NCBI GenBank assembly: GCA_000972765.1
Contig: CP011265.1
Span: 310,001-374,000 of the forward strand
Reading direction: 5' to 3'
From: Verrucomicrobia bacterium IMCC26134
Lineage (GTDB): Bacteria; Verrucomicrobiota; Verrucomicrobiia; Opitutales; Opitutaceae
DNA length: 64,000 bases
How positions within the stretch are numbered: position 1 is the stretch's first letter; each line of letters opens with the position of its first letter. The notes under the pieces were generated by a model, which saw only the letters and a list, made by a program, of their open reading frames with translations, made no database searches and was not told the origin of the DNA. This document shows positions 37,675-58,760 of the stretch, one piece after another. A program made the translations under genes and the position numbers.

Positions 37675-40517
37675 CTGCTTACTGGGCGGAGACCGAGAGG
37701 CGGAGGAAGCGGCGGGTGGTGGAGCCGAGGGTGGTGGTATCGGTGTAGGTGATGGTGCCTGCGCTGGAGAGCCCGGTGTAGGTCTGGGCAGGGGCCCAGG
37801 TGGAGAGATCGGAGCTGGCTTGAACGACATAGCTGAGGGAGGGGTCGGCGATGGTGTTGAAGGCGAGGGTGAGGAAGGAGCCCGAGGTGGAGAGGGTGAC
37901 GGGAGCGTTGGTGTTGGCCGCCATGGGATCGGAGCCGAGGGCGTATTCGAGGAGGTTGGAGCGGCCGTCGCCATCGGGGTCGGCGTTGTTGGCGCCGGAG
38001 GCGGAGTTGGCGCTGTCGCCGAAGTGGATCACGCGCCAGGACTGGAGCGCGCTGAGGGGGGGCGCGGTGACGCTGAGGGTGCTAGTGGCCTCGTCGTATT
38101 GGTAGCTGCCGGAGGTCCACTTGCGGGCGCCGAGCGCGCCGGCGTCGGCGGTAAAGCCGTTGACGGTGAAGGTGGCGCCGTAGGTCTTGGCGCCGCTGGT
38201 GGCGACGAGCACCCAGCTCGAGCCCGAGACCGTGCTGGTGGCGGAGGTATCAATGGAGAAGGTGCCGTTAAGGAAGGCGGGATTGGTGCCGGTGATGGCG
38301 TTGGTGATGCCATTCGCGGCGGGGGCGAAGGTGAGGGTGCCGGTGCTCGCCAGGGTGAAGCCGGCGGTATTCAGGAGGCTCAGGCTGCCCTTGTAGGTGT
38401 TGGTGCCGGCGAAGGTGACCGGGTTTGGACCGGTGAAGACCAGGTTACCCGTGCCGGAGAGCGCGGCGGTGATGGTGATCCCGCCGTTTTGGGTGTAGAT
38501 CTCGGAAGCGCTTCGGACGTTGATGGCGCCGGCGATCGTGGCGACGACGTTGCCGTTGGTGGCGTTGTGCAGGCGGCCGCCGTCGAGCACGCCGTTCGGC
38601 AGGGTGATGATGCCGGTGCCTTTGACGAGCAGGTTGCCGCCGGTGAAGATCACGAGGTGGTTGCCTGCGAAGGTGTAGTCCAAGGCGTCGGCGGGGGTGC
38701 GGAGGCTTTGCACGTCCACGAAGTAGTTTTCACCAGTAGCGGGGGTGACGGTGCCTTCCCAGTTGAGGCCGGCGTTGAAGGAGGTGGTGCCGACCGTGTC
38801 GCCGGTCAAGAGGCGGTGGCCGTCGGCCACGCCGTCGCCGTTGATGTCGCCGGGGACGGAGGCGGCGAGGGCGGGGTTGGAGCGGGCGGCTTGCTCGGCA
38901 AGGTTGTCAAAGGTATCGGAGTCGGAGTCGGTGGTGCCGTTCTGGGTGGTGATGCTGGCGAAGTAGGTGAGTTCCCAGGTATCGAGCAGGGTGTCGCCGT
39001 CTTTGTCGGTGATGGTGGCGGTGGCGAGGTTTCCAAAGGTGGCGAGCTCCCATGAGTCCTTCACGCCGTCGGCGTCGGTGTCGGGCCAGGAGGTGTCGAG
39101 AATCGGGTTGGTGCCGGCGGTAAATTCGGCTGCGTCGGTCGAGCCGTCGCTGTCGGTATCGGCGGAGCCGTTGTGGCTGAGGTCACCGAAGTTGGAGATT
39201 TCCCAAGCGTCGGTGAGGCCGTCGTTATCCGCGTCGGGGTTGGTGACGACGGTGACGGTGCCGGTGGCCTCGTCGAAGCGGTAGAAGGGAGCGGAGCCAA
39301 GGGATGACCACTTGCGGGCGCCGACGGCGGCGCCGTCAGTGACGTAGCCGGTGACGCTGAAGGAGGCGCCGTAGGTCTTGGCGCCGCTGGTGGTGATGAG
39401 CAGCCAAGTATCGCCGAGGGTGGCGCTGGCGCCGGTGACATCGAGCGAGAAGGCGCCGTTGAACACGACCGGGCCGGTGCCGGTGACGGCATTGTTCACG
39501 CCGGGAGCGCCGAGGACGAACTTCATGGCGCCAGAGGAGGCGAGGGTGAAGCCGGCGGTGTTGCTGACGGTGAGGTTGCCGGTGTGGGGGTTGACTCCCG
39601 CGAAGGTGACGAGGTTGCCGCCTGTAAGGGTGAGGTTGCCTGTGCCGCTGATGGGAGCGTTGACGAGGAAAGCGCCGTTGTTGGCCCAAAGGGTGGAGGG
39701 CTTGGTCACAAGCACGCTGCCGTTGATGGCAACGGCGGCGGTGGTCGCGGCCTGGTTGATCATGCCGCCGTCGAACTGGAGGATGGGGAAGGTGGCGGCG
39801 CCGGTGGTCTTCCAGATGAGGGTGCCGACGTTGGTGCCTGCGGTGGTGAGGATCAGTTTGTCGCCAGCGAAGGTGACGTCGCCCGTGGCGGGAGTGCGGA
39901 GACCGTTGAGTGCGACGACGTAGTTCGCTCCGGCCAGGGGCGTGGCGGCGTCTTTCCAGTTGAGGCCGGTATTGAACGAGGTGGTGCCTATGATGTCGCC
40001 GGTGATGAGGACGGTGCCGTCGCTCACGCCGTCGTTGTTGATGTCGCCCGGAATGGAAGACTGAAGGGCGGGGTCGGTGAACAGGTTGTATTCCTGCAGA
40101 TTGGTGAAGCCGTCGGCATCGGGATCGTCGGCGGTGGCTTGGCGGGCCAGAATCGCGGAGGAGTTGGCCAGGCCGGTCTCGCCGGCGAGTTTGAAGTAGT
40201 GGATCTCCCAGCCGTCAGGCAGGCCGTCTGCGTCGCTATCGCCGCTGGAACGGTAGTCGGCGGGATTGGTGCCGGCGAACTGCTCGGTGTAGTTGTCGTA
40301 GCCGTCGTCGTCCGGATCGTCCGACAGGCCGGAGTCGAGGTTGCCAAAGTAACGTATTTCCCAGGCGTCGTTCAGGCCGTCGAAGTCGGTGTCGGGGTAG
40401 CTGGAGTTGCTGTTGGGAACGGAGCCGGCGTTATACTCCTGCAGATTCGTGGCACCGTCGGCATCCGGGTCGGCGGCCGCGCTTTGGGCGAGGTTGCCGA
40501 AGTAGCTGATTTCCCAG
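37675..40517. repeat. Near-identical 2,843-bp direct duplication, copy A
   Basis: This block matches 55918-58760 at a constant offset of 18,243 bases. The only mismatch I found is C at 40442 against T at 58685, 75 bases from the right boundary. It starts 4 bases beyond the stop codon and covers the C-terminal ~950 residues of both giant proteins. Outside the block the left flanks are unrelated and the right flanks are homologous but clearly diverged. Confidence 0.95.
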
Positions 40518-42658
40518 TTATCAGGCAGGCCGTCGCCATCTACGTCGGAGGGGATGGAAGCGGTGACGGTGGGGTTGGAACCGCCGGTGTATTCGGCGGC
40601 GTTGGTGAAGCCGTCGCTATCAGGGTCGGCGGTGCCGGATTTGGTGAGGTCGCCGAAGTAGGCGGTTTCCCAAGGGTCGCTGAGGCCGTCGGCGTCGGTG
40701 TCGACAAAGGTGAAGGAGTTGGGGCCGGCGAGCTGGTAGGTGTTGATGGCGTCGTTGGTGAGGGCGCCGTTCCAGATGCGGACCTCGTCGTAGGTGGCGG
40801 CGGCAACGTTATCGCTGGCCCACATGGAGCGGCCGAGCCAGTTGTTGACGTCGTTGAGGTTGGCGAGGGTGTTGGCGGTGTCGAAGGTGCCTTTGGCGGA
40901 GAGGCCAGTGGTGGTGACGGCGGAGGCGACATACCAAGTGACGCGGGTGCCGCTGGCGAGGGATCCGCCGGTGTAGGCGGCGGGGGTGAGGGTCAGGACG
41001 ATGTGATATTTGGTGCCGAGGGTGTAGCCGAGGACGGTGTCTGAAACGCCGGTGTTCACGCCGTCAACCCACTCGGCGCGGTCTTGGGCGGCGGCGGTGC
41101 CGCGGGTCCAGGACATGAAGAGATACTCGGTGGTGGAGCTGCCGAAGTCGAAGATGCGACCCCAGTTTTGCACGGCGTTCTGGGCGGCCCAGAACTCGAG
41201 CGTCACGGGGGCGGTTTTGCCACTGAGGAGGCTGGTGCCGAGTTTGACCGCGGCAGAACTGGTGGAGGCGCCGCCGGTGAGGGTGACGGCAGTGGAGGTC
41301 TGGGTGACGGTGCCGCCGACGGCGGAGTTGGCGTCGGGGTCGACGATGGTGGCATTGGAGCCGCCGACGCTGTCGGTCAGGTTGCCATCGAAGCTCCAAC
41401 GATTGGCTAGCACGGCTTGAGTGGGGGTCCAGTTGACATTGGTGGGGCTGGAGCCGGCGGCCATTTCGGCGGCGTTGGAGGCACCATCGGAGTCTGCGTC
41501 GCCGGAGCCGTTCTGGGCGGCGATGGTGCCGAAGAAGCGGATTTCCCAGGCGTCGTTCAGGCCGTCGGCATCGGAATCGGGGGCGGAGGCGGCATTCGCG
41601 GGGTTGGTGCCGGCGGCTTGTTCCTGAAGGTTGGAGGCGCCGTCGCCGTCGGGGTCGCCGCTGCCGGACTGGGCGGTGCGGTTGACGAAGTAGGTGACTT
41701 CCCAAGTGTCGGTGAGACCGTCGGCGTCGATGTCACTTGGGGTTGAGGCGAGATTGTTGGGAACGGAGCTGGCGGTCTCCTCCTGCTCGTTGGTGAAGCC
41801 GTCGGCGTCAGGGTCGCCGGCGCCGTTCTGCGAGCTGGTGTTGCCGAAGTAGAAGATTTCCCAAGTGTCGTTCAGGCCGTCGAGGTCGGCGTCGGTGACG
41901 GCGGCGAGCGCGGGATTAGTCAGGTTGGGGGTGACGGAGGTATCGACGTAGATATCGTCGAAATAGATGTTAGTGGTGGCGCTGTTGGAGAGGATCACGA
42001 AGCTCGTGAGGGCGGACGCGGCTGAGGCGTTACGAAAGTTCCAGGTGCCGTCTGAGGAGGCGATTTGGGTCTGCGTCGCATAGGTGGCGTCTCCGTCACG
42101 CTGGACGTAGAGCTGGTAGCTGTCCGCGGTCGTGTTGATCACATACCAGACGTTATACCAGGAATTGGCGACGAGGTTGAGGAGCGGGGAGCGGTTGGTG
42201 GCTCCGTCGCGTGAGCCGAAGTTTCCGTTGGTGCCGGTGATGTTGCCCTGGATCTCGTAGCCGGTGAAGGCGGTGAGGGAGGCGGGATTGACGTAGGAGA
42301 GGCCGAAGGAGACGTCGTTGGTCAACCCGCCGATCCGGATGCGGTAGAATAAGGTGCCGCCCGAGGCGTCGGCGATGGCGGTGGGGAGGGCTTTGGCGGC
42401 GTCTCTGACGCCGGCCATGGCTAGCACTTTATTGACCGCGTCGGCGGGGTCGGCCGCGACGGCGGGGGCGGCGGTGGTGCTCTCGGTTGATACGGCCCAG
42501 CCGTTCTGGCCCCCGAGCGCGCCGGTGTTGAGGTTATTGAAGGTCTCGACGGCTTGATAGGCTGCATGGGCGGTCCCTAGAGCGCCGGTCAGGGCGAGAG
42601 CGGCGGTGAGTTTGAGGTAAGCGAGCGAACGTTTCACGGGGTGAGCTGAGGGGGTCAT
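37679..42658 (-). CDS. Giant secreted repeat protein A: LamG-like domains, TSP3-like repeats and beta-strand modules
   Basis: 1,659 residues from the ATG at 42658, which gives a signal peptide (ends GALGTAHA). Order: N-terminal jelly-roll region (~30-245, ends TNIYFDDIYVDTS), three DxDGLxDxWExxYFG repeats (~255-410), a LamG domain (~416-650, RWSFDGNLTDSVGG to YDEVRIWNGAL), four more repeats, beta-strand module 1 (~880-1140), two or three repeats, beta-strand module 2 (~1275-1535), then the shared C-terminal module (DPDGDGRSNLLEYALGSDP, SSDLSTW, RRFLRLSV). The acidic repeats look Ca-binding. No catalytic domain is seen, so glycan binding or surface display is likely. The C-terminal 950 residues are almost identical to protein B at 55922. 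Confidence 0.85.
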   Translation of the reverse strand: MTPSAHPVKRSLAYLKLTAALALTGALGTAHAAYQAVETFNNLNTGALGGQNGWAVSTESTTAAPAVAADPADAVNKVLAMAGVRDAAKALPTAIADASGGTLFYRIRIGGLTNDVSFGLSYVNPASLTAFTGYEIQGNITGTNGNFGSRDGATNRSPLLNLVANSWYNVWYVINTTADSYQLYVQRDGDATYATQTQIASSDGTWNFRNASAASALTSFVILSNSATTNIYFDDIYVDTSVTPNLTNPALAAVTDADLDGLNDTWEIFYFGNTSSQNGAGDPDADGFTNEQEETASSVPNNLASTPSDIDADGLTDTWEVTYFVNRTAQSGSGDPDGDGASNLQEQAAGTNPANAASAPDSDADGLNDAWEIRFFGTIAAQNGSGDADSDGASNAAEMAAGSSPTNVNWTPTQAVLANRWSFDGNLTDSVGGSNATIVDPDANSAVGGTVTQTSTAVTLTGGASTSSAAVKLGTSLLSGKTAPVTLEFWAAQNAVQNWGRIFDFGSSTTEYLFMSWTRGTAAAQDRAEWVDGVNTGVSDTVLGYTLGTKYHIVLTLTPAAYTGGSLASGTRVTWYVASAVTTTGLSAKGTFDTANTLANLNDVNNWLGRSMWASDNVAAATYDEVRIWNGALTNDAINTYQLAGPNSFTFVDTDADGLSDPWETAYFGDLTKSGTADPDSDGFTNAAEYTGGSNPTVTASIPSDVDGDGLPDNWEISYFGNLAQSAAADPDADGATNLQEYNAGSVPNSNSSYPDTDFDGLNDAWEIRYFGNLDSGLSDDPDDDGYDNYTEQFAGTNPADYRSSGDSDADGLPDGWEIHYFKLAGETGLANSSAILARQATADDPDADGFTNLQEYNLFTDPALQSSIPGDINNDGVSDGTVLITGDIIGTTSFNTGLNWKDAATPLAGANYVVALNGLRTPATGDVTFAGDKLILTTAGTNVGTLIWKTTGAATFPILQFDGGMINQAATTAAVAINGSVLVTKPSTLWANNGAFLVNAPISGTGNLTLTGGNLVTFAGVNPHTGNLTVSNTAGFTLASSGAMKFVLGAPGVNNAVTGTGPVVFNGAFSLDVTGASATLGDTWLLITTSGAKTYGASFSVTGYVTDGAAVGARKWSSLGSAPFYRFDEATGTVTVVTNPDADNDGLTDAWEISNFGDLSHNGSADTDSDGSTDAAEFTAGTNPILDTSWPDTDADGVKDSWELATFGNLATATITDKDGDTLLDTWELTYFASITTQNGTTDSDSDTFDNLAEQAARSNPALAASVPGDINGDGVADGHRLLTGDTVGTTSFNAGLNWEGTVTPATGENYFVDVQSLRTPADALDYTFAGNHLVIFTGGNLLVKGTGIITLPNGVLDGGRLHNATNGNVVATIAGAINVRSASEIYTQNGGITITAALSGTGNLVFTGPNPVTFAGTNTYKGSLSLLNTAGFTLASTGTLTFAPAANGITNAITGTNPAFLNGTFSIDTSATSTVSGSSWVLVATSGAKTYGATFTVNGFTADAGALGARKWTSGSYQYDEATSTLSVTAPPLSALQSWRVIHFGDSANSASGANNADPDGDGRSNLLEYALGSDPMAANTNAPVTLSTSGSFLTLAFNTIADPSLSYVVQASSDLSTWAPAQTYTGLSSAGTITYTDTTTLGSTTRRFLRLSVSAQ

Positions 42659-42848
42659 GAGGGTGTGGGAGTATAAAACGGAGGACGTGGTGAGGGTGTG
42701 TTGGTTCACTTTAGGGGCAGGGGGTGGGCCCCGGCTTCGTTTCGCTAATTCAGGGGGGGGAGGTTACTAGAGTTAGGGGCGCGGGAAGCGCGTGGGGGGG
42801 TGACTGCAGTAGTGTCCATTTAAGGGGCGCTCAGGCAACGTGGTCTTG

Positions 42849-42863: not shown

Positions 42864-42934
42864 AAAACGTGACGTTCGGCTAGATGGCTCTGCGTCGTGA
42901 TAAACTGCGCAGAGCTGACGAGGGCGAGGACCGC

Positions 42935-45900
42935 TTACGGCGAGGTGACGCGCAGGCGCAGGAAGCCGCGGCCGGTCGGCGAGTCTTCGACGGGGGTTTT
43001 AAGGACAAAGGTGCGAATCTCAAAATCGCCGTCGTCCACCCGGGTGTTTGTTGGCGAGACGTCGGAGGCCGCCGCAGGCAGGGAAAGACCGTCCAAGCTC
43101 GTCGCTCCCTCGGGAATGAGGGTGAGGCCGGTGAAGACTTTACGCACGCGGGTCTCGAGCGTGAGGTAGTGTTTGCCAGTGATGGCACCGGTGAGCTCGG
43201 TATCGGTGAGAGTGCGGAGCGCCAGCGCGGGACCTGCGGCGGGATTGGTGGCCAGGGGATCTCCGCCCGAGAGCCACTCGAAAGCGTTGGCAACCCCGTC
43301 GCCATCGGGATCGGAGGCGAGGTCGGAAGTGCCTTGCGGCAAGGCGTAGGTGGCCGACCAGCCGGCGTAAGTGGAGACGAGGGCTTTAATGGTGAGGATG
43401 CCGGTCGTGGTGAGTGCGGTGGTGTCCCACTCCAAGCCGGCGGCGAGGGTGGGCAGGGTGAGCGCGGCAAACGTTCCAGAACGCGCGCCGGAGGTGAACA
43501 GCGTGTAGGTGTCGCCGGCGGAGAGGGTGCCGCCGAGATTGGAGACGACGAGGGTGCCGCCGTAAATGAGAGTGCCGGAGACGGCGAGAGTGTCGTGGGT
43601 GTTGAAGGTGCGATTGAGTTCGATCCGGGTGAAGGAACCCGACTGCAGCACGACGTTGCCGGCCACGGTGAGCGTGCCGACCCCGGCGCCGGGGGCGAGG
43701 GAGCCACCAGCGAGCACGTTGACCGAGCCGCCGACGGTGCCGTTGCCGCCGAGGGTGGCGGCGCTGGCGACGGTGACGGTGCTCACGGCGGTGGAGCCGT
43801 TTATTCGCAGGGTGCCCGCGCTGACGGTGGTGGCGCCGGTGTAGGTATTGGCGCCGGAGAGGGTGAGGGTGCCCGAGCCGACCTTGGTGACGGCGATGGA
43901 GCCGCCGCCGCCGCCGATGGATCCGGCGAAGTCGGTCGAAGCGTTAAGGGCGCCGACTTGAAAGGTGTTGGAGGCTGTGACACTGAGGCTGTTGCGCAGA
44001 ATGGAGCCTGGGACGCCGCTGAGGGCGCCGAAGGCAAAGGTGTTGGTCCCGCTCGCGACGCTGGCGATGATGCCCTGGAACGAAGCGGTTCCGACCGCGA
44101 TATCGTAGCGGGCGGAGGCGCTCACGGAGGCGGTCGAGGCGATGCCGGTGGACGAGGCGCCTGTATTCAAGGTGTAGTTACCGGTGAAGCCGGTGAAATT
44201 TCCGGAAAGGGTGGTGATGCCGCCGTGGGACACGATGGCGCCGGAGCCGCTGATGGTCTGGGAGAGCGTGGACGCGGTGTAGAGGTTGAGGGACGTGCCG
44301 GAGGCGAGCGACAGGGCGCCGGTGCCGAGGAGGCCAGAGCCGGTGAGGTTGAGCGATCCGCCGGTGACGGTGGTGTTGCCGGTGTGGGTGTTGGCAGCGG
44401 AGAGGGTGAGGATGCCGGCGCCATTCTTGGTGATGGAGATGCCGGTGGTGGCGCTGCCGTTGGACAGCGGGCCGGAGAGGGTGAAGTTACCTGTGCCGGA
44501 GAAAGTGAGGATGCGGGAGCCGGTGGCGAGGGAGGTGAGGGAGCCGCCGAGGGTGAGGGTGCCGGCGTCGGACTGGAGGTAGTAGTTGCCGCCGCCGGCA
44601 TTGAGGGTGAGGCCGCCGGTGATGCTGTTGTCGCCGGCGATATTGCGGAGGGAGACGACAGTGTTGTTACGGCCGCTAAGCGTGAGGGCGGCTTGGGTGA
44701 TGATCCCGCCGAGGGTGCCGTCGAGTTCAAGCGTGGAGCTGCCGGCGTTGTTGTCGCGAATCTGGATGGCAGTGACCAAATCCAAGGCGTCGGGGTGGGT
44801 GGCGCGCACGATGCCCTCGGCGGTGGTGGTGCTGTTGGTGTCGATATAAACGGTGCCGGAGAGGGAGCTGGCAGCGGCGAGGGCCAGGGTGCCGGCGCCG
44901 CTTTTGGCAAAGCCGTTTACGCCGGCGAGCGGTGTGGCGAGGGTGACGGTGTTTTGGTTGACGACGAGGGAGGGCGACGTGGTGGTGCCGGTATCGAGGG
45001 TGAGGACGGCGCCCGAGGCGGAGTCCAGGCGCCAGTTTTGCGTGCCGGAGGTGTCGCCGAAGCTGAGGGTGCCGATGGAGCGGGAGCCGTTGAGGGTGAC
45101 GGTGCGGTCGGCGGTGATGTTAATCGCACTGAAGTTGGCGGAGTTGCCGGCGCCGTTGGCGGGGAAGGCGCCATACCATTTGGTGGTGTCGCTCCAGTTT
45201 GCGTTGGAGTCCGAGGTCCAGGTGCCGTTGCCGAGCACGACGGTGGGGAGCTGGATGGAGAGGACGGTGAAGTGGGTGGCGCCGGCGGCATCGGTAGCGC
45301 TGAGGGTGAATTCCTGGGCGCCCTCGTCGTTGAAAGTAGGGGTGCCGGAAAGCACCCCGTTGGCGGAAACCTGGAGCCAGCCGGGGCCGCTGGCCTTGGC
45401 GTAGGAGACGGTGTCGCCCGGATTGGTGTCGGTGGCGGAGCCGGCGACGGTGCCGGAGTAGGCCTGGCCCTGCGTGGCGGCGGAGCCGGTGAGGGCAGTG
45501 GAGCTGAACTGGGGCGGGGTGTCGGTCACCAAGGCGGCGATCTGGGTGGCGCTGAGCGCGGAGTCGGCGAGGCGGACATCGTCGAGCAGGCCGTTGAAAA
45601 GCGGGTCCGCCGGCCACTGGCTCTTGCCAATGTAGTTGTAGTCGGTGGCGGATACGGTCGGCGTGGTGATGGTGCCCGAGACCTGGAGGACGCCGTCGAG
45701 GTAGATCTTGGCGGTGGTGCCGGACATCGTGACGGCCACGTGATGCCAGGCGCCGGAAGCGAGGGCGCTGGTTTCGATTGTGGCGGTCGCGGCGGAGCCG
45801 TTTCGAACACCAAACCGCATCTTGCCGCCCGAGCCTGGGCAGAGGTAAATGAACTGGGTGGTGTCGTTGCCGAAGTCGAAGATACGCTGGTTGTCGCTGC

Positions 45901-47497: not shown

Positions 47498-47672
47498 GGT
47501 CGGCTGACGGAGGCGCTGGTCGAAAAAGGCTCCGCCGAGGGTGAGGCGAAAAAAAGGGGGGGTGCTAATGGCAAAAATGTCTCGTCAACGGTCGGCTTGG
47601 CAAGCGACCCCTCCGCCATTCGGTCGCGACCGCCTGCCTGTGTGTGATTGCCTGTCGAGGTGGCAGCTTGAG

Positions 47673-47687
47673 CGTTTACGTTATACC
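47673..47687 (+). promoter_or_regulatory. Candidate LacI-family operator, copy 5
   Basis: CGTTTACGTTATACC matches the shared core. It lies 176 bp upstream of the GH128 start at 47497. Confidence 0.5.
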
Positions 47688-47711
47688 AAAGGGGTGCCCA
47701 GAGGCACGGGT

Positions 47712-47726
47712 TGTTTACGCTAAACA
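47712..47726 (+). promoter_or_regulatory. Candidate LacI-family operator, copy 6 (palindromic)
   Basis: TGTTTACGCTAAACA is a near-perfect 15-bp palindrome: both half-sites are TGTTTA around a 3-base centre. It lies 175 bp upstream of the GH30 start and is one of two copies that define the dyad symmetry. Confidence 0.65.
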
Positions 47727-47901
47727 GCACCAGTTTAATTTGTGTCTCGCGCCCGAGTAGTCGTCTGCCTCGCAATCCGAAACACGGTATTGTCCGCTGC
47801 CTACCCCTCATCCGAATTCCAAATTCGCCATCGACCCTTCTTGTCCGGGCCATGGTTTTATAGCCTCGTTCAGCCTTCTTACGCCCCCCTAAGTTTAGTT
47901 C

Positions 47902-49413
47902 ATGCCGAATCCTGTCATCACATTAATCGGGTTGTTGATCAGTGTCGTCGGCATCTGCGTCGGAGCTCGTGCGGAAAAACCGGATGTTCTGCCGCCGGTC
48001 ACCAGTAGTGTTAAGATCGACCCGACCGCCACGCAGGGGGTTTGGGTGGGGTGGGGCACGTCGCTGGCTTGGTGGGCCAAGGATTTCGGCCACCGCGATG
48101 ATATCGCCGACTGGCTATTCACCACCGGCACCGTGCAGATCAACGGCAACACCCTCCCGGGTCTCGGCATGACTATTGCCCGCTACAATGCCGGCGCCTG
48201 CAGCTCCGCCGAGATCGACGGACGTCGCATGGTCGTATCCCGATCCATATTGCCGTTCCGCCAGCTCGACACTTTCTGGCTTGATGGACGCGACCGCGAC
48301 CCTGCCTCCGCGAGCTGGGACTGGAGCGCAGACGCCAACCAGCGCGGCATGCTCCAAAAAGCCCGCGACCGCGGCGCCAATCGCTTCGAACTCTTCTTCA
48401 ATTCCCCTCCTTGGTGGATGTGCGTAAACGACAACCCTTCCGGCGGACCCAAGGGTAATGCCGAAAACCTCCGTGCCGATATGCGCGAGTCCTTCGCCTA
48501 CTACATCGCCACCATCGCGCGCCGCGCCGCCGATCACTGGGGGCTCGCCTTCACCTCGGTCGCCACGTTCAACGAGCCTTCCTCCGACTACTGGTTTGCC
48601 AACGGCAAACAGGAGGGCGCTCACTTCTCCCCCCGCTCCCAAGCCGAGATACTGCCTCTCGTCCGTGCCGCCCTTGACCGCCAGGGGCTCGCCACTCTCG
48701 CTCTCAGCGCTTCCGACGAGACGTCTTACGACCATGCAGTGAATGCCTGGCGCATCTATCCGCCCGAGGTGCGCGCAATCGTCGCTCAGGTCAACGTCCA
48801 CGGCTACCAAGGGCTCAACGGCAACCGAGCTGCTCTCCGGGCAGAGGCTGCCATCCGCGACGGCAAACCCATCTGGAACTCCGAGCACGGCGACCGCGAC
48901 GCAGACGGCCTGCACATGGCCCGGGTCCTCCATCACGACATGGCGGTCCTCCGTCCTCTCGCCTGGTGCTACTGGCAGCCCATCGACGGCGGCCTCGGGG
49001 GAAAAGGCGGGAGCGGTTGGGGCTTCATCGACGCCAATATGCTCTCTCCAAAGCTGGGCAAAGTGAACGCCAAGGCGCATGTCTTTGCTCAATACAGCAG
49101 ACACATCCGTCCGGGTATGGTGATTTTGACGACGGGCAGCGAACACGTCACCGCCGCCTACGATGCGAAGGCGCGCAAGCTGGTAGTGGTCGCTTTGAAT
49201 GAAGGCGACTCCGCTCGCGAGATCGCCCTGGATCTCGCGATGCTGCCAAGCGCTGCCGGCCGCGTTTCCCGCTGGTTGACTTCACCCTTCGCGACCGAGC
49301 GCTATGAACGGCTTGCGGACGAGCAGCTGAAGACCACGAAACCTTCGTGGACAATCCCGGCGAAGAGCGTGCTCACGGTTGAGGTCCAAGCATCAGTCCC
49401 TGATTCACGCTGA
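47902..49413 (+). CDS. GH30-family glycosidase, GH30_5-like endo-beta-1,6-galactanase
   Basis: 503 residues with a signal peptide (ends GARA). A (beta/alpha)8 barrel with attached beta domain begins GVWVGWGTSLAWWAKDFG, the typical opening of GH30 beta-1,6-galactanases. The acid/base Glu 225 is in TFNEPSSDYW and the nucleophile Glu 328 in WNSEHGD. Known GH30_5 enzymes cut beta-1,6-galactan side chains of arabinogalactan proteins. The C-terminal beta domain (about 390-500) is present. It heads an operon with a BNR protein and two GH43 enzymes. The subfamily is assigned from motif memory, so 1,6-galactanase specificity is likely but not certain. Confidence 0.85.
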   Translation: MPNPVITLIGLLISVVGICVGARAEKPDVLPPVTSSVKIDPTATQGVWVGWGTSLAWWAKDFGHRDDIADWLFTTGTVQINGNTLPGLGMTIARYNAGACSSAEIDGRRMVVSRSILPFRQLDTFWLDGRDRDPASASWDWSADANQRGMLQKARDRGANRFELFFNSPPWWMCVNDNPSGGPKGNAENLRADMRESFAYYIATIARRAADHWGLAFTSVATFNEPSSDYWFANGKQEGAHFSPRSQAEILPLVRAALDRQGLATLALSASDETSYDHAVNAWRIYPPEVRAIVAQVNVHGYQGLNGNRAALRAEAAIRDGKPIWNSEHGDRDADGLHMARVLHHDMAVLRPLAWCYWQPIDGGLGGKGGSGWGFIDANMLSPKLGKVNAKAHVFAQYSRHIRPGMVILTTGSEHVTAAYDAKARKLVVVALNEGDSAREIALDLAMLPSAAGRVSRWLTSPFATERYERLADEQLKTTKPSWTIPAKSVLTVEVQASVPDSR

Positions 49414-49446
49414 CTCGTTTTCCTGCCGCGCCGCTTTTATTTGACC

Positions 49447-50850
49447 ATGTTTCACTTCATCCGACTTCTCCTTTTCCCGGTTCTTCTTTGCGCAGCGGAG
49501 CCGTCGCCATCCGTCACACAACCGGCGTCCATTCTGGCTGAGTTGCCGGTGGACACGGTCTGGTCGGGGCATCCGGTGACCTTTGCCTTTCTGACCGAGC
49601 GCGGACATCAGTTCATCGCCTACTACGATGCCGAGCGCCGCATCACCGTGGCGGGACGACGGCTCGACGAGACCGGGTGGACGAAGATGCATCCCGAGGG
49701 TGTCGCGCTTCCGAATCGAGACGGTCGTGCGTCAAATATCACGGGTTGGGACAGTCACAATTACCTCGCCCTCGTTCTCGACCGTGACGGTTACCTCCAC
49801 CTTTCGGGTAACATGCACAACGACCCGCTCTGCTATTACCGGTCTAGCCGCCCGTTTGACGTCTCGTCGCTGGAGCGCATTGAGCGCATGACCGGTGCGC
49901 GCGAAAGCAGCGTGACCTACCCCGTGTTTTTTAAAAACGCCGCCGGCGACCTTCTCTTTCGTTACCGCGACGGTTCAAGCGGCAACGGCAGCGACATCTA
50001 CAACCGCTACGACACAGCAACTCGAGCTTGGGCCAACCTGCTCGAAACGCCCTTGCTCGACGGCCAGGGCCAGCGCAACGCCTACGCTATGAGCCCCGTG
50101 CTGGGGCCTGACGGACGTTTCCATCTGGTGTGGATGTGGCGCGAATCGCCGGACTGTTCCTCCAATCACACCCTCTCCTACGCACGCAGCCCCGATATGA
50201 TCCACTGGGAACGTTGTGACGGGACGCCTCTCTCTCTCCCGATCACGCTGAAAACCGGCGAGGTGATTGACGCCGCCCCGGAAAAACAGGGGTTGATCAA
50301 TATGACCTTTAATCTCGGCTTTGATGCCGGAAACCGCCCCGTGGTGGTCTATCATCGTTACGATGCGAAGGGCAAATCGCAGGCCTTCGCAGCCCGGCCT
50401 TCCGCCGACGCCTCCAAGTGGGAAACCAGTCAGCTCAGTGACTGGGATTTCCGCTGGGGCTTCTCCGGTGGAGGCTCGATCATCGCTGAGGTCACGCTCG
50501 GCGCGGCTACAATCCAAACAGACGGGAGCCTGCTCGTCGACTTCTCCACCACGCACGATGTCGGTGCCGGTCGCTGGCGCCTCGATCCGGCCACTCTGCG
50601 CCCCCGAACCACCTTGCCTCCACCCGCGAACGTATTGCCCGCCTCGCTCGCTGCACCCGTATCGGTCACTCCGGGCATAGAGGTGCAGACCGCTGTTTCT
50701 CGAGAAGGAGGCCGCCGCTGGGTGCTGCGCTGGGAGACCCTCCCGCGCAACCGTGATCGCCCTCGCGACAGTGCTCCGCTTCCCACTGCACTGAGCGTCT
50801 ATGAACTGCCAGACGCCGACACCGGCGGTGCCCTGCGCGTGGGCTCTTAA
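49447..50850 (+). CDS. Secreted BNR-4-type beta-propeller protein (polysaccharide lyase candidate)
   Basis: 467 residues from the ATG at 49447, two codons inside a TTG-initiated frame, with a signal peptide ending LCAAEP. The single propeller domain shows the BNR-4 patterns HNYLALVLDRDGYLHLSGNMH, ESSVTYPVFFKNAAGDLLF, RDGSSGNGSDIYNRYD and PVLGPDGRFHLVWMWRES. It is a stand-alone version of the propeller in the gene at 21925. Relatives include lyases that remove rhamnose from glucuronate caps of arabinogalactan (PL27-type) and ulvan lyases. Between a GH30 galactanase and a GH43 galactanase, the arabinogalactan role fits best; catalytic residues were not assigned. Confidence 0.78.
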   Translation: MFHFIRLLLFPVLLCAAEPSPSVTQPASILAELPVDTVWSGHPVTFAFLTERGHQFIAYYDAERRITVAGRRLDETGWTKMHPEGVALPNRDGRASNITGWDSHNYLALVLDRDGYLHLSGNMHNDPLCYYRSSRPFDVSSLERIERMTGARESSVTYPVFFKNAAGDLLFRYRDGSSGNGSDIYNRYDTATRAWANLLETPLLDGQGQRNAYAMSPVLGPDGRFHLVWMWRESPDCSSNHTLSYARSPDMIHWERCDGTPLSLPITLKTGEVIDAAPEKQGLINMTFNLGFDAGNRPVVVYHRYDAKGKSQAFAARPSADASKWETSQLSDWDFRWGFSGGGSIIAEVTLGAATIQTDGSLLVDFSTTHDVGAGRWRLDPATLRPRTTLPPPANVLPASLAAPVSVTPGIEVQTAVSREGGRRWVLRWETLPRNRDRPRDSAPLPTALSVYELPDADTGGALRVGS

Positions 50851-50869
50851 AATCTCGGCCAATCTCGCG

Positions 50870-51895
50870 ATGAAAAGCCACCGGCAGCTGCTTTTATTCA
50901 TCCTTATTGGTCTTGGTCCAATCGCCATACTCCACGCCGACTCAAGCGCGTCACCTCGCACCAGTATCGTTCCTGGTGCGGTCTGGCCCGATGATCGCGG
51001 GCACCACATCCAGGCGCATGGTGGCGGCATCCTGAAACTGGCCGAAACCTACTATTGGTTCGGCGAGGATCGCGGCGGCGAACGGGGCGGTAAAAAAGCC
51101 ATCGAACGCAAGGTGGCCTGCTACGCCTCGAAGGATCTCATAAACTGGGTCTTTCGCCGCCAGGTCATCCGAACGGGTCCGCCCGAGACCGGGTTAGGTG
51201 TTCCCTTCGTTTTAGAACGACCAAAGGTTTTTCACAACGCCCGCACCGGCAGGTTTGTCATGTATGTCCACCTCGATGACAATGCATACAGGCTGGCCCG
51301 CGTCGGCGTCTACGTGAGCGATACTGTCGACGGTGATTACGCCTTCGTGCGCAGCTTTCGCCCCCTCGGCGAGGAGAGCCGCGATATCGGCCAGTTCGTC
51401 GACGACGACGGCTCCGCCTACCTTATTTTCGAGGCCCGGCCGACCAAGGGGTTTTATATCGCTCGGCTCTCCGACGACTATCTCAACGTCGCAGAGAAGG
51501 TCTGCTTTATTCACACACGCCTCGAGGGTGGAGCGCTCGTGAAATACGACGGTCTTTATTACATCATCGGCTCGTGGATGAGCGGTTGGGCTCCAAACAA
51601 CAATCAATACGCCACCGCAAAAACTCTCGCCGGTCCGTGGTCCGAGTTTCACGAGATCGCACCGCCCGAGACCAAAACCTATGGATCGCAATCCACCCTG
51701 ATGCTCAAGGTCGTCGGCTCGAAAAAAACCTCGGTGATCTTCATGGGCGACATCTGGCGTCCCGGCGACCACCAGGACGGTCGCTATCTCTGGATGCCGC
51801 TGGAAATCGGCAACGGCCGTCTCTGGCTCCCGAAACCGCAGGAATGGTCCATCAACGTGCAGACTGGCGAAACACGTATCATCTTGCCCAAATGA
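50870..51895 (+). CDS. GH43 glycosidase, GH43_24-like exo-beta-1,3-galactanase
   Basis: 341 residues from the ATG at 50870, with a signal peptide ending ILHADS. The five-bladed propeller begins WPDDRGHHIQAHGGGILKLAETYYWFGED, whose IQAHGGGI(L) element is characteristic of exo-beta-1,3-galactanases of GH43_24. Later features are ERPKVFHNARTGRFVMYVH and FVDDDGSAYLIFEAR. Some members of this subfamily lack the usual catalytic base and work by a substrate-assisted route; I did not assign the residues. It removes galactose or side-chain-bearing units from the beta-1,3-galactan backbone. Its stop overlaps the next start (ATGA). Confidence 0.85.
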   Translation: MKSHRQLLLFILIGLGPIAILHADSSASPRTSIVPGAVWPDDRGHHIQAHGGGILKLAETYYWFGEDRGGERGGKKAIERKVACYASKDLINWVFRRQVIRTGPPETGLGVPFVLERPKVFHNARTGRFVMYVHLDDNAYRLARVGVYVSDTVDGDYAFVRSFRPLGEESRDIGQFVDDDGSAYLIFEARPTKGFYIARLSDDYLNVAEKVCFIHTRLEGGALVKYDGLYYIIGSWMSGWAPNNNQYATAKTLAGPWSEFHEIAPPETKTYGSQSTLMLKVVGSKKTSVIFMGDIWRPGDHQDGRYLWMPLEIGNGRLWLPKPQEWSINVQTGETRIILPK

Positions 51896-53322
51896 ACCTC
51901 GTTCACGTCGCAGCCATGACTGGTGTTTTTATGCTCGGCGCCCTTACCCGCGATCAGGGGGCGGTCGCAGCCGACGCTCCGCGCCAGGCCGAGCAACCTC
52001 ACGCCGCCAATCCCATTCTTCCCGGCTACTTTGCCGATCCCTCGTTGGTGAGGTATGAAGATAACAACTACATTTACGCCACGCTCGACCCTTGGGGTGA
52101 CGCCACCCTCGGTTGCTGGGAATCGCGCGACTTTGGCAATTGGAACTACCTTGAACTCAACTGGCCGACCAAACGCGCATGCACCAGCCCGACCTCGCAG
52201 AGTTCGAAGGTCTGGGCTCCCTCGGTCGTCCGGGCCGGCGACGGGCGCTTTTTCATGTATGTCTCGGTCGGCAGCGAGGTCTGGGTCGGTGTCGCCGACC
52301 GTCCGGCCGGGCCTTGGCGAAACGCCCTCGGTGACCGCCCGCTCATCCCTTCCAACTACAAACCCGGTTACCACATGATCGACGCCGAGGCCTTCATCGA
52401 CGAGGATGGCCAGGCTTATCTCTATTGGGGGTCGGGTTGGAACTGGACCAACGGTCGTTGCTGGGCGGTCAGGTTGAAGCCTGACATGGTCACCTTCGAT
52501 GGCGAGGTGCACGACGTCACCCCGGCTAACTACTTTGAAGCTCCTTTCCTCTTCAAACACGCGGGACGATACTTTCTCACCTACTCGCGAGGCCGGACCG
52601 ATCAGGACACTTACGAGGTCCGCTATGCCGTCGGCGATTCCCCCTTTGGCCCCTTTGTCGACGCAACCAACAACCCGCTACTCACCACCGAAAAATCCAG
52701 CGACGTCATCTCGCCTGGTCATCACGCGATCTTCATCCGCGAAGACCGCGCCTACCTGCTCTACCATCGGCAAAGCATCCCCTTCGTTCCGACTTTTATC
52801 GGCCGGCAAACCTGCGTCGATGAACTTACCTTTCGTGCCGACGGTCTACTGGAAAAGGTCACGCCCACTCATCATGGCGCAGGCTTTCTCGCCGGTCTTC
52901 GCAACCGTCGGGGAGACTCCCCGAACTTGGCCGATCCTGCGCTCGGCGCCAGCGCCACCGCCTCTGGACAACGCGCGCCCAATGCCGGCCCCGAACGCGC
53001 GCTCGACGATAACTACGCCACCCGCTGGGCCGCTCCGACCGACGCCAAGGGCGGCTGGCTGAAGATCGACCTCGGCGCCATCCGCGACTTCACCCGGCAG
53101 GAGATTCGCTTCGAGTATCCTTGGAGAACTTACTGCTACTCGCTCGAAACCTCGTCTGATGGGGTGAACTGGACCAAGCCAGTCGCCGTTAAAGATGGCC
53201 AAGCTCCGGTCGGATCCCCCGTTGTCATTCGACACCCCGCGCGCGCCCGCTACCTGAAGCTCGTCTTCCCCGAGTCCGGGCGAGGGGCGGATCTCGCGGT
53301 CATCGAATGGGCTGTTTTCTAG
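51892..53322 (+). CDS. GH43-family glycosidase with C-terminal F5/8-type C (CBM32-like) domain
   Basis: 476 residues from the ATG at 51892, overlapping the previous stop by 4 bases; the frame is open further upstream but that part is antisense-like. Signal peptide, then a five-bladed propeller (about 40-330) starting NPILPGYFADPSLVRYEDNNYIYAT, with catalytic-base-type Asp in the FADPS motif, KVWAPSVV, IDAEAFIDEDGQAYLYWG and FEAPFLFKHAGRYFLTYS (acid-type Glu). A discoidin-type domain (about 355-476: ALDDNYATRWAAP, SLETSSDGVNW) probably binds galactose-type sugars. GH43 activities range over arabinofuranosidase, xylosidase and galactosidase; arabinofuranosidase would suit an arabinogalactan. 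Confidence 0.85.
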   Translation: MNLVHVAAMTGVFMLGALTRDQGAVAADAPRQAEQPHAANPILPGYFADPSLVRYEDNNYIYATLDPWGDATLGCWESRDFGNWNYLELNWPTKRACTSPTSQSSKVWAPSVVRAGDGRFFMYVSVGSEVWVGVADRPAGPWRNALGDRPLIPSNYKPGYHMIDAEAFIDEDGQAYLYWGSGWNWTNGRCWAVRLKPDMVTFDGEVHDVTPANYFEAPFLFKHAGRYFLTYSRGRTDQDTYEVRYAVGDSPFGPFVDATNNPLLTTEKSSDVISPGHHAIFIREDRAYLLYHRQSIPFVPTFIGRQTCVDELTFRADGLLEKVTPTHHGAGFLAGLRNRRGDSPNLADPALGASATASGQRAPNAGPERALDDNYATRWAAPTDAKGGWLKIDLGAIRDFTRQEIRFEYPWRTYCYSLETSSDGVNWTKPVAVKDGQAPVGSPVVIRHPARARYLKLVFPESGRGADLAVIEWAVF

Positions 53323-53344
53323 CTGCTACGTTTCCTGCCCCACT

Positions 53345-53713
53345 ATGAAACCACCTCTCCCTTTTATCGCCCTCGCGTTCGCATTGCTTCTATCCGGCTG
53401 CTCGACCTATTCGCATAGACATCCGTCAACGGAGACGTCCATCGAAGCCTCGAAGTCGACCGATTGTCTTATCATTTCGGCCACGTATGGGTCTGGATCG
53501 CACTTCGCCGATGTGACGAATCGCGTGAACGACCTGTTGCGGCAGACAAACACGCATTTCTGGGCGAAGCCGAAATGGCTGGGAGTGGATCCGGCGCCGG
53601 GCTGGAACAAGGCGCTGGTGATCGTTTACGAGCATAAGGGGAGGAGGCGGATTTTCACGACCGGCGAAGGCGGCACGGTCAGCATCGCGCGTCTGCTCAA
53701 AAACAAAGCGTAG
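53345..53713 (+). CDS. Small predicted lipoprotein, last gene of the GH30-GH43 operon
   Basis: 122 residues. The N-terminus is a lipoprotein signal with lipobox LLSGC (Cys 20). The mature part has a single small domain: CLIISATYGSGSHFADVTNRV, FWAKPKWLGVDPAPGWNKAL and VIVYEHKGRRRIFTTGEGG. It resembles the small beta domain (DUF3395-like) sometimes found attached to glycoside hydrolases and J-proteins, where a YGxGxxxxDVT stretch is typical. It lies 22 bp after the GH43-CBM32 gene. Function unknown; a membrane-anchored glycan-handling or accessory role is possible. Confidence 0.7.
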   Translation: MKPPLPFIALAFALLLSGCSTYSHRHPSTETSIEASKSTDCLIISATYGSGSHFADVTNRVNDLLRQTNTHFWAKPKWLGVDPAPGWNKALVIVYEHKGRRRIFTTGEGGTVSIARLLKNKA

Positions 53714-53733
53714 CCTGACAGAACGGCCGACGT

Positions 53734-54594
53734 TCAGGGCTTGGTTTGGTAGACGCGGACCCAATCGATCTCGAACTTCGCGGGGAGCGAACTCTCGGGC
53801 AGGGGGCCGCCATTGTCGCCGCCGAGAGCGAGATTGAGGATCATGTAGTGCGGCTGGCGGAAGGGCATCTTGCCGTCCGGGTTCCTGGTGTCCTTCAGCT
53901 TGGTTTCGTTGAGCAGTCGGTCGTCGAGGTAGAGGCGGATGGTGTCGCGCGTCCAATCCATGCGTCACACATGGAATTCGGCGGCCCATTTGTCGCCTCC
54001 GAGCTCTGCGACCGGTTTGGTTTCGGAGTGCCATTTGGCTTTGAAGCGTTCCGTGGTGCCGGAAGCCACGTTGGCCAGCACTTTGCCACGGTAGTATTCC
54101 ATGATGTCGATTTCGCCACTGGAGGGCCATTCGCCGTCCACCCCCAGCGTCCACCATGCGGGCCAAAGGCCGGCGCGCACATCAATACGGGCACGGAGTT
54201 CGAACCGGCCGTATTGCCACTGATGCAGCCCGTGTGTGAGCACGCTAGCTGAGGTGTAGGTGGACCTCGCGGCCTGGTTTTTCCAGTTGGTTGAGCCCGG
54301 TTCGTGGCGCGGGTTGGGCACCGACTCTCGACGCGCCTCGATGACGAGCAGACCGTTCTTCACCCGTGCGTTGTCAGGCTGGTAGAACTGCGCCTCGTGG
54401 TTGCGCACGAAGCCGCGTTCAAAGATCCAGCTGGCGGGGTCGGGCGGCCCGTCGACGTTAAATTCGTCCGACCAGACAAGGTTATAGCCGGCCGGCGGGA
54501 GCGCAGGCGTGGCGAGGCGGCTCGACGGGCTTGCCCACAGGGTCAGAATAGGAGCGAGCCAAAGGAGCTGGAGCAGTGCGCCTTTCAATTTCAC
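53734..54594 (-). pseudogene. GH16-family beta-glycanase interrupted by one in-frame TGA stop
   Basis: Reading from the GTG at 54594 gives a signal peptide and a full GH16 jelly-roll of 286 codons, but codon 210 (53965-53967) is TGA. Before it lie NLVWSDEFN, WPSSGEIDIMEYY with the catalytic ExDxxE triad (Glu 161, Asp 163, Glu 166), and EFHV. After it the frame continues without shift as RMDWTRDTIRLYLDD to the normal end FEIDWVRVYQTKP. Family members usually have FHVWRMDW here, so the stop replaces Trp (TGG to TGA). The remaining codons show no decay, so the mutation is recent, a sequencing error, or read through. It follows the dehydrogenase gene, separated by a terminator. Confidence 0.85.
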
Positions 54595-54630
54595 GATTTT
54601 AAAAGAAATATTCCGGAGCGGGCGTTGACG

Positions 54631-54653
54631 AAAAATCCCGAAAGTTTTTCGGG
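54631..54653 (-). terminator. Rho-independent terminator of the 2-hydroxyacid dehydrogenase gene
   Basis: On the minus strand CCCGAAA-AAC-TTTCGGG is followed by A and a TTTTT run. It lies 10 bp past the dehydrogenase stop and just upstream of the GH16 start. Confidence 0.85.
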
Positions 54654-54662
54654 ACCGGAGAC

Positions 54663-55676
54663 TCAGGCGCAGATGGCGAGCTGGGTGCGGATGAACTCTC
54701 CCTGAAGCGGCTGACCGGCGGAGTAGCGGGCAATCTCTTCGATCATGGCGCGCGACATACGAAGGCATTCCGGGCCAAGGCTGCCGGCCAGGTGGGGCGT
54801 CACGATGACATTGGGCATGGCGGGGAGAACTGCGTCCGGGGCCGGCGGCTCGACGGCGAGCACATCGAGCAGGGCCCAGAGGTCGGGACGGGTGGCGAGG
54901 ACCTCGGCCAGCTCGTCCTCGCGGACAATGGCGCCTCGCGCGGTGTTGATGAAGGTGGCGCCGGGGCGCATGGCGGCGAAGTGCTCTCGGCGCAGCAGCC
55001 CGATGGTATCGTCGAGCAAGGGTATGTGGCAGCTGACGACGTGCGAGCGGGCGAAGACCTCCTCCATGGAGACGAGCTCGACATCCAGCGCGGCGGCTTC
55101 GGCGGGCGAGACGAAGGGATCGTAGGCGATCACGGATACATCCAGGCGGTTAATTTGCTCGCGCACGAGCCGGCCGGTGCGGCTGAGTCCGAGCAGTCCC
55201 ACGGTGCTGCCGGCGGCACCGACGAGCAGAGGATCATCGGGCAGGTAGAGTCCCGCCTCGCGCTGGGCCGTGATGCGCGGCCAGACGCGTTTGAGGGACA
55301 AGACGATCATCGAGAAGGTGAACTCGCCGACGGGGCGGGCGTTGATCTCGGCGGCGCTGCTCACTCGGATGCCGCGATCCCAGAGCTCGTCTGTGACGAA
55401 GGATTTCACCGAGCCGGCGGCGTGGAAAATGGCGCGCAGGGAGGGAAGGGCGGAGAGCATGCGCGCATCCATGCGCGGCAGACCCCAGCCGGAGAGGATG
55501 ATTTCTGCCTGGCGGAGTCGCGGGTCATCGAGGCTCTCGTCGGTGGGGAATTCGTCCTGGCGTATATCCAGCACCTCAACGACCTCGCGGAGGCGCTCAA
55601 GTTCCGCCTGGGACAAAACCTGGTCTAAAGCGTAGGGCTTCATCCAGACGATGGCTTTGAGACGAGGGCGCGGCAT
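54663..55676 (-). CDS. D-isomer-specific 2-hydroxyacid dehydrogenase (NAD-binding)
   Basis: 337 residues from MPRPRLKAIV; the frame is open 40 codons upstream but those lack a protein pattern. It has a flanking catalytic domain and a Rossmann domain: VGLLGLSRTGRLV (a GxGxxG variant), then the catalytic set Arg in NTARGAIV, Glu in LDVLAVEPP and His in VTPHLAGS. The enzyme reduces or oxidises a 2-keto/2-hydroxy acid with NAD(H); the substrate is unknown. No signal peptide is present. It has an operator-like motif 127 bp upstream and sits among glycan-degradation genes, so sugar-acid catabolism is a reasonable guess. Confidence 0.88.
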   Translation of the reverse strand: MPRPRLKAIVWMKPYALDQVLSQAELERLREVVEVLDIRQDEFPTDESLDDPRLRQAEIILSGWGLPRMDARMLSALPSLRAIFHAAGSVKSFVTDELWDRGIRVSSAAEINARPVGEFTFSMIVLSLKRVWPRITAQREAGLYLPDDPLLVGAAGSTVGLLGLSRTGRLVREQINRLDVSVIAYDPFVSPAEAAALDVELVSMEEVFARSHVVSCHIPLLDDTIGLLRREHFAAMRPGATFINTARGAIVREDELAEVLATRPDLWALLDVLAVEPPAPDAVLPAMPNVIVTPHLAGSLGPECLRMSRAMIEEIARYSAGQPLQGEFIRTQLAICA

Positions 55677-55802
55677 AGGTGGGTGGGACGGCCTGCAGGT
55701 GAATCGGGGCCGGAGGTTGAAGGGGAGAATAGAGTTTTCGGCGGGGATGCACCGCAGATTTGACAGGATGTGCCGGCATGGCCGGGGGACCAGCATCGCG
55801 AT

Positions 55803-55817: not shown

Positions 55818-55917
55818 GGCGGCTGGGACGTGTGGTCTGTCGCGACGCCACAGGAAGAACGACCGCCTGTTTTACGGGCGGCCGTTCCGTGGGAAACGGT
55901 GGCTTTTAACGGTCGCG

Positions 55918-58760
55918 CTGCTTACTGGGCGGAGACCGAGAGGCGGAGGAAGCGGCGGGTGGTGGAGCCGAGGGTGGTGGTATCGGTGTAGGTGATGGTG
56001 CCTGCGCTGGAGAGCCCGGTGTAGGTCTGGGCAGGGGCCCAGGTGGAGAGATCGGAGCTGGCTTGAACGACATAGCTGAGGGAGGGGTCGGCGATGGTGT
56101 TGAAGGCGAGGGTGAGGAAGGAGCCCGAGGTGGAGAGGGTGACGGGAGCGTTGGTGTTGGCCGCCATGGGATCGGAGCCGAGGGCGTATTCGAGGAGGTT
56201 GGAGCGGCCGTCGCCATCGGGGTCGGCGTTGTTGGCGCCGGAGGCGGAGTTGGCGCTGTCGCCGAAGTGGATCACGCGCCAGGACTGGAGCGCGCTGAGG
56301 GGGGGCGCGGTGACGCTGAGGGTGCTAGTGGCCTCGTCGTATTGGTAGCTGCCGGAGGTCCACTTGCGGGCGCCGAGCGCGCCGGCGTCGGCGGTAAAGC
56401 CGTTGACGGTGAAGGTGGCGCCGTAGGTCTTGGCGCCGCTGGTGGCGACGAGCACCCAGCTCGAGCCCGAGACCGTGCTGGTGGCGGAGGTATCAATGGA
56501 GAAGGTGCCGTTAAGGAAGGCGGGATTGGTGCCGGTGATGGCGTTGGTGATGCCATTCGCGGCGGGGGCGAAGGTGAGGGTGCCGGTGCTCGCCAGGGTG
56601 AAGCCGGCGGTATTCAGGAGGCTCAGGCTGCCCTTGTAGGTGTTGGTGCCGGCGAAGGTGACCGGGTTTGGACCGGTGAAGACCAGGTTACCCGTGCCGG
56701 AGAGCGCGGCGGTGATGGTGATCCCGCCGTTTTGGGTGTAGATCTCGGAAGCGCTTCGGACGTTGATGGCGCCGGCGATCGTGGCGACGACGTTGCCGTT
56801 GGTGGCGTTGTGCAGGCGGCCGCCGTCGAGCACGCCGTTCGGCAGGGTGATGATGCCGGTGCCTTTGACGAGCAGGTTGCCGCCGGTGAAGATCACGAGG
56901 TGGTTGCCTGCGAAGGTGTAGTCCAAGGCGTCGGCGGGGGTGCGGAGGCTTTGCACGTCCACGAAGTAGTTTTCACCAGTAGCGGGGGTGACGGTGCCTT
57001 CCCAGTTGAGGCCGGCGTTGAAGGAGGTGGTGCCGACCGTGTCGCCGGTCAAGAGGCGGTGGCCGTCGGCCACGCCGTCGCCGTTGATGTCGCCGGGGAC
57101 GGAGGCGGCGAGGGCGGGGTTGGAGCGGGCGGCTTGCTCGGCAAGGTTGTCAAAGGTATCGGAGTCGGAGTCGGTGGTGCCGTTCTGGGTGGTGATGCTG
57201 GCGAAGTAGGTGAGTTCCCAGGTATCGAGCAGGGTGTCGCCGTCTTTGTCGGTGATGGTGGCGGTGGCGAGGTTTCCAAAGGTGGCGAGCTCCCATGAGT
57301 CCTTCACGCCGTCGGCGTCGGTGTCGGGCCAGGAGGTGTCGAGAATCGGGTTGGTGCCGGCGGTAAATTCGGCTGCGTCGGTCGAGCCGTCGCTGTCGGT
57401 ATCGGCGGAGCCGTTGTGGCTGAGGTCACCGAAGTTGGAGATTTCCCAAGCGTCGGTGAGGCCGTCGTTATCCGCGTCGGGGTTGGTGACGACGGTGACG
57501 GTGCCGGTGGCCTCGTCGAAGCGGTAGAAGGGAGCGGAGCCAAGGGATGACCACTTGCGGGCGCCGACGGCGGCGCCGTCAGTGACGTAGCCGGTGACGC
57601 TGAAGGAGGCGCCGTAGGTCTTGGCGCCGCTGGTGGTGATGAGCAGCCAAGTATCGCCGAGGGTGGCGCTGGCGCCGGTGACATCGAGCGAGAAGGCGCC
57701 GTTGAACACGACCGGGCCGGTGCCGGTGACGGCATTGTTCACGCCGGGAGCGCCGAGGACGAACTTCATGGCGCCAGAGGAGGCGAGGGTGAAGCCGGCG
57801 GTGTTGCTGACGGTGAGGTTGCCGGTGTGGGGGTTGACTCCCGCGAAGGTGACGAGGTTGCCGCCTGTAAGGGTGAGGTTGCCTGTGCCGCTGATGGGAG
57901 CGTTGACGAGGAAAGCGCCGTTGTTGGCCCAAAGGGTGGAGGGCTTGGTCACAAGCACGCTGCCGTTGATGGCAACGGCGGCGGTGGTCGCGGCCTGGTT
58001 GATCATGCCGCCGTCGAACTGGAGGATGGGGAAGGTGGCGGCGCCGGTGGTCTTCCAGATGAGGGTGCCGACGTTGGTGCCTGCGGTGGTGAGGATCAGT
58101 TTGTCGCCAGCGAAGGTGACGTCGCCCGTGGCGGGAGTGCGGAGACCGTTGAGTGCGACGACGTAGTTCGCTCCGGCCAGGGGCGTGGCGGCGTCTTTCC
58201 AGTTGAGGCCGGTATTGAACGAGGTGGTGCCTATGATGTCGCCGGTGATGAGGACGGTGCCGTCGCTCACGCCGTCGTTGTTGATGTCGCCCGGAATGGA
58301 AGACTGAAGGGCGGGGTCGGTGAACAGGTTGTATTCCTGCAGATTGGTGAAGCCGTCGGCATCGGGATCGTCGGCGGTGGCTTGGCGGGCCAGAATCGCG
58401 GAGGAGTTGGCCAGGCCGGTCTCGCCGGCGAGTTTGAAGTAGTGGATCTCCCAGCCGTCAGGCAGGCCGTCTGCGTCGCTATCGCCGCTGGAACGGTAGT
58501 CGGCGGGATTGGTGCCGGCGAACTGCTCGGTGTAGTTGTCGTAGCCGTCGTCGTCCGGATCGTCCGACAGGCCGGAGTCGAGGTTGCCAAAGTAACGTAT
58601 TTCCCAGGCGTCGTTCAGGCCGTCGAAGTCGGTGTCGGGGTAGCTGGAGTTGCTGTTGGGAACGGAGCCGGCGTTATACTCCTGTAGATTCGTGGCACCG
58701 TCGGCATCCGGGTCGGCGGCCGCGCTTTGGGCGAGGTTGCCGAAGTAGCTGATTTCCCAG
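55918..58760. repeat. Near-identical 2,843-bp direct duplication, copy B
   Basis: Partner of 37675-40517 in the same orientation. The T at 58685 is the only difference I found; it is synonymous in the minus-strand protein. The left boundary lies 4 bases beyond the stop codon at 55922 and the right boundary falls inside a TSP3-like repeat. Confidence 0.95.

Follow-up and report, generated by a model that had tools for sequence, protein, structure and literature searches.

Probable recent gene conversion between two giant repeat genes on either side of a carbohydrate-utilisation cluster in an Opitutaceae genome

Two large repeat genes and the cluster between them

The window, by which we mean the whole stretch of 64,000 nucleotides of Verrucomicrobia bacterium IMCC26134 that was analysed, holds two large genes, here called A and B, with a carbohydrate-utilisation cluster between them:

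37679-42709, minus strand: gene A, a 1,676-aa open reading frame; the likely start at 42658 (MTPSAHP...) gives 1,659 aa
55922-61066, minus strand: gene B, 1,714 aa, with an N-terminal domain unlike that of A, TSP3 repeats, LamG (PF13385) and an A-type tail
42935-55796, no strand assigned: the genes between A and B (GH128-like, GH30, BNR_4, GH43, an interrupted GH16 and a 2-hydroxyacid dehydrogenase)
39245-40015, minus strand: predicted solenoid module 1 of the gene A tail; in B at 57488-58258, and lacking in the B orthologues
38069-38818, minus strand: predicted solenoid module 2 of the gene A tail; in B at 56312-57061 (tail residues about 567-816)
37682-38065, minus strand: shared C-terminal domain ending RRFLRLSVSAQ; in B at 55925-56308

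Both genes are full-length, and each has its own distinct signal-peptide-like N-terminus (read by eye). The protein of gene A comprises TSP3 repeats, a LamG-like domain, two beta-solenoid modules and the C-terminal domain of a larger family; in Pfam, the TSP3 repeats of both proteins are the bacterial PF18884, and PF13385 is above cut-off in B. The tail that the two proteins share consists of TSP3 repeats, two strand-rich modules and the C-terminal domain. The AlphaFold model of this tail, which is partial (mean pLDDT 56), contains two beta-strand-rich, solenoid-like modules, and module 1 (tail residues about 168-424) is mostly strands, with pLDDT mostly 60-86 from about residue 198. A Foldseek search of the tail against the PDB returned weak matches only, headed by autotransporter passengers of the beta-helix type, such as antigen 43 (E 0.002, probability 0.5), and a sequence search against the PDB gave no useful relative, only weak EF-hand/lanmodulin matches of the TSP3 repeats. 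The tail modules are predicted to be beta-solenoids, and the products of A and B are probably large secreted multidomain proteins bound to the surface, which may serve in polysaccharide use, either at the surface or in secreted form.

The first-pass annotation had placed GH128, GH30, GH43 and GH16 genes between A and B. Pfam identified the first three, the GH128 as GH128-like (PF11790), along with BNR_4; the GH16 assignment comes from alignment to an intact homologue, and its frame is interrupted by a stop. This frame (about 53734-54768, minus strand) carries TGA at 53965-53967, a codon that is TGG (Trp) in the intact gene of the relative; the two align over 776 bp without a gap and the remaining frame is open, so that the gene looks intact but for a recent nonsense mutation or a base error. 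The break was considered as a clue to assembly error and rejected, since a base substitution (TGG to TGA), and no indel, accounts for it in this gap-free alignment.

A near-identical tract and its counterparts in relatives

The 3′ ends of A and B are nearly the same, and the features of this shared tract are as follows ("A-type" and "B-type" refer to likeness to the orthologues A′ and B′ of a related genome):

37675-40517, minus strand: copy 1 of the tract, the 3′ end of gene A and putative donor; one mismatch to copy 2; A-type when compared with the orthologue
55918-58760, minus strand: copy 2 of the tract, the 3′ end of gene B and putative acceptor; A-type, the rest of gene B being B-type
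40442 (C) / 58685 (T): the sole inter-copy difference; CTG versus CTA on the coding (minus) strand, synonymous Leu
40262-40297, minus strand: a 36-bp B-type patch (DNYTEQFAGTNP) inside the tract, in gene A; in B at 58505-58540
40518-41500, minus strand: the homologous-but-diverged flank in gene A; partner 58761-59743; 66-94% identity per 100 bp

On pairwise comparison, the match between the two copies spanned 2,843 bp, its offset constant at 18,243, without indels and with the one mismatch, exactly as the first-pass annotation had reported. Its observation that the match is blind to codon position was borne out as well (0, 0 and 1 differences at positions 1, 2 and 3), as were the abrupt start of the tract and its end inside a repeat in which the genes remain homologous but diverged. 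The start at 37675/55918 is sharp, with no A/B homology before it, and the end lies at 40517/58760. On the genes' 5′ side the tract has A/B homology next to it; on their 3′ side such homology stops with the stop codon, so that only one of the two homologous flanks usual in a conversion is visible. In the diverged flank, which extends to about 41500, the longest exact A/B runs are 35 and 34 bp, and no exact run outside the tract exceeds 35 bp; a 75-bp run is the tract's own first part, up to the mismatch. A whole-genome search found the tract at just two places in the single-contig 4.0 Mb genome, the next-best matches being about 69-73% over 200-360 bp. A near-identical tract within otherwise diverged paralogues, as seen in A and B, is one of the patterns by which ectopic gene conversion is recognised.

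The nearest genome with the tail, G005, belongs to the same genus; two of its contigs, C201 and C65, align collinearly to 36343-62339 with an identity of about 80%, and the cluster at 42935-55796 falls on C65. Both genes are in place there in the same order, together with a pilin-like gene downstream of A and a dehydrogenase gene downstream of B; the first-pass annotation had proposed looking for the same pair in related genomes, and the pair of genes was indeed found, but with tails that are unhomogenised. A′, which is split across two contigs and was joined with one inferred base, encodes 1,658 aa, compared to 1,659 aa for A. B′ encodes 1,297 aa with one beta-solenoid module, whereas B has 1,714 aa and the two modules of A; module 1 is missing from B′ and also from the B-type gene of a second relative, G004. 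A′ and B′ have exact runs of 20-49 bp in common, of a kind that could seed recombination. The polarisation that follows rests on G005, the sole close relative in which both genes are intact enough. In G004 (contigs C245 and C247; L044 and L045) the locus is rearranged, with the A-type gene adjoining GH43, the B-type one-module gene adjoining a pilin-like gene, and the GH128-like gene in the opposite orientation to the genes beside it.

Direction of copying and alternative explanations

In the LamG segment, outside the tract, identity is 88.6% between A and A′, 86.9% between B and B′ and 79.1% between A and B. Inside the tract, in module 2, A and B are 100% identical to each other and match A′ at 86.9% and B′ at 73.8%; there, B′ falls into a group with G004's one-module gene. 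The AU test rejected a grouping of A with B before the tract (p about 2e-5), and within the tract it rejected both the pairing of orthologues (5e-67) and a B-type origin (5e-10); the trees inside and outside the tract are thus in significant conflict, as is looked for in ectopic gene conversion. Moreover, in the unconverted genome G005 the tract is A-type in A′ only, B′ being B-type, and the tract has its match at the source gene only. Most of the tail in A and B is of A-type ancestry, and the number of modules in B has changed. Since the tract is A-type in both copies, and module 1 is missing in B′ and in the B-type gene of G004, A appears to be the donor and B the acceptor, which gained a module. 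The copies differ at a single site, compared to 507 of 2,826 aligned sites between A and A′ over the orthologous stretch, indicating that the copying took place long after the two species had separated. As the two genes already stood in this order before the divergence from G005, we infer a conversion, that is, the replacement of an existing 3′ end, and not a duplication into new sequence. The first-pass annotation had left a choice between recent duplication and gene conversion while dismissing selection; recency and the dismissal of selection stand, and the choice narrows to conversion from A to B.

We consider it very probable that a recent, directional, ectopic gene conversion from A to B, between two old paralogues, replaced 2.8 kb at the 3′ end of B. 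A and B are old paralogues flanking the carbohydrate-utilisation cluster on either side, and in a very recent non-reciprocal homologous recombination the 3′ 2.8 kb of A would have been copied over the 3′ end of B, from a starting point among the TSP3 repeats common to both as far as the stop codon, where A/B homology ends. The one-solenoid tail of B would thereby have been swapped for the two-solenoid tail of A, leaving B longer by about 417 aa, in frame. The mechanism was presumably of the RecA type, the large copy presumably took place as one event, and the product of B is presumably still functional. The copied DNA may have come from the same cell or from a near-identical sister cell.

An assembly artefact, in which an assembler or polisher put the tail of A into B, or a mis-join arose at the repeat, has to be weighed against this, as 2.8 kb exceeds the span of short reads. 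The copies, however, differ by one base, the genome is a single contig with an estimated completeness of 100%, G005 has the same gene order and the same two outer junctions, and the reading frame is kept at both joins; furthermore, had B carried a true B-type tail, there would have been little to misassemble on, given the shortness of the exact A/B runs outside the tract. Such an artefact is in our estimation unlikely. New duplications, too, look like near-identical direct repeats, so that B or its tail might be a new copy of A in new sequence, yet both genes occupy the same places in G005 and the parts of A and B outside the tract have diverged like those of old paralogues, which renders a recent segmental duplication very improbable. 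That A and B are both intact genes would suit an old duplicate kept identical by strong purifying selection, an idea that we consider to have practically no chance of being correct, given that synonymous sites are identical as well, against 507 sites that separate the tract from its orthologue.

The conversion from A to B does not account for every part of the tract. The 36-bp patch is 81% identical to B′ versus 52% to A′, although it is preceded by sequence with more identity to A′ (73%) than to B′ (65%) and followed by an A-specific stretch. Over the last ~130 codons the tree has no resolution (A′-B′ 80.8%; focal tail 77.6% to A′ and 80.6% to B′), and the final ~35 codons have 14 informative sites of B-type versus 8 of A-type. 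GCAG, the 4 bases past the stop codon that are included in the match, also follows the stop of B′ but not that of A′, and can no longer be read, as in the first-pass annotation, as a sign of copying beyond the gene. All three features would agree with a conversion from B to A, or with exchanges in both directions that were similar in extent; the larger part of the tract is nevertheless A-type, the extra module with it, and a B-type origin of module 2 was rejected, making either course unlikely. The putative donor, gene A, has kept its A-type tail, yet it bears the B-type patch and an end that lacks tree resolution. A single event is too few to explain this mosaic in detail, and the conversion from A to B was likely preceded by one or more smaller exchanges from B to A. 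A broader notion, that the A and B tails swap repeatedly in both directions and that Opitutaceae diversify surface proteins via C-terminal solenoid blocks, as mycobacteria do with PE/PPE, strikes us as doubtful.

The two copies of the tract now stand as 2.8-kb direct repeats on either side of a polysaccharide-utilisation cluster, which could be lost or duplicated by recombination. The first-pass annotation had expected recombination between the copies to delete or invert the DNA between them; deletion holds and inversion does not, direct repeats deleting or tandemly duplicating one 18.2-kb unit.

Known systems and the family of the C-terminal domain

In antigenic-variation cassettes, such as pilE/pilS of Neisseria, part of a surface-protein gene is replaced from another copy. 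The A/B pair is similar in this respect, but A and B are both full-length and without silent partial cassettes. Programmed antigenic variation by silent cassettes was rejected for the same reason, and because the tract occurs just twice in the genome.

Conversion between paralogous repetitive surface-protein genes was reported for PE_PGRS17/18 (PMC1762029), conversion of PE/PPE genes was seen with long reads, in both directions in one pair (PMC12046097), and a later preprint counted over 300 events (PMC13061034). The A/B case resembles these PE_PGRS/PPE cases of M. tuberculosis in its presumed non-reciprocal copying between neighbouring or distant paralogues that encode repetitive secreted or surface proteins (PMC1762029, PMC12046097, PMC13061034), one pair there having been converted within the repetitive C-terminal part, and in that the converted genome has two exact matches and the unconverted genome one. 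It differs from them in phylum and protein family, in that 2.8 kb were copied to the gene's 3′ end, and in the change in solenoid module number. For tufA/tufB in Salmonella, which are nearly identical (12 differences), a quantitative model of conversion is available (PMC5485169); the likeness lies in the intrachromosomal conversion of duplicate genes, with mostly contiguous tracts bounded by loss of homology, whereas the divergence between the A and B orthologues is about 20-30% in the converted part and beside it.

That paralogous genes for repetitive surface proteins undergo conversion is already established in bacteria, and the A/B pair answers to the main tests used there; distinctive are the length of the tract, the polarising relative and the change in domain number. 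A literature search for Opitutaceae and gene conversion found no paper in the collection searched. The pair offers a clean, relative-polarised case in which ectopic gene conversion has altered the domain make-up of a giant secreted protein in an organism other than the pathogens usually studied; it also shows that comparing orthologues of such repeat proteins may be misleading if conversion goes unchecked.

The ~130-aa C-terminal domain, with an end motif like (R)RFLRLxV plus a few residues, recurs at dozens more places in the genome. It sits at the very C-terminus in 29 of the 30 family members checked, all large proteins of this genome, and a Pfam search gave it no above-cut-off match; perhaps it represents an Opitutaceae domain, as yet undescribed, that sorts or anchors these proteins. 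When 30 loci with this domain were compared all against all, A and B alone were near-identical over a long tract, the other matches being tandem repeats internal to a gene and, between two loci, a single match of 139 bp at 91%. The internal repeats are 80-96% alike in L052, L054 and L074, and recent within-gene expansion may be common in the family. A PEP-CTERM protein with autotransporter-type beta-strand repeats (TIGR02595, TIGR02601) lies at 32887-36603, so that an exosortase-type system probably exists alongside the other C-terminal domain.
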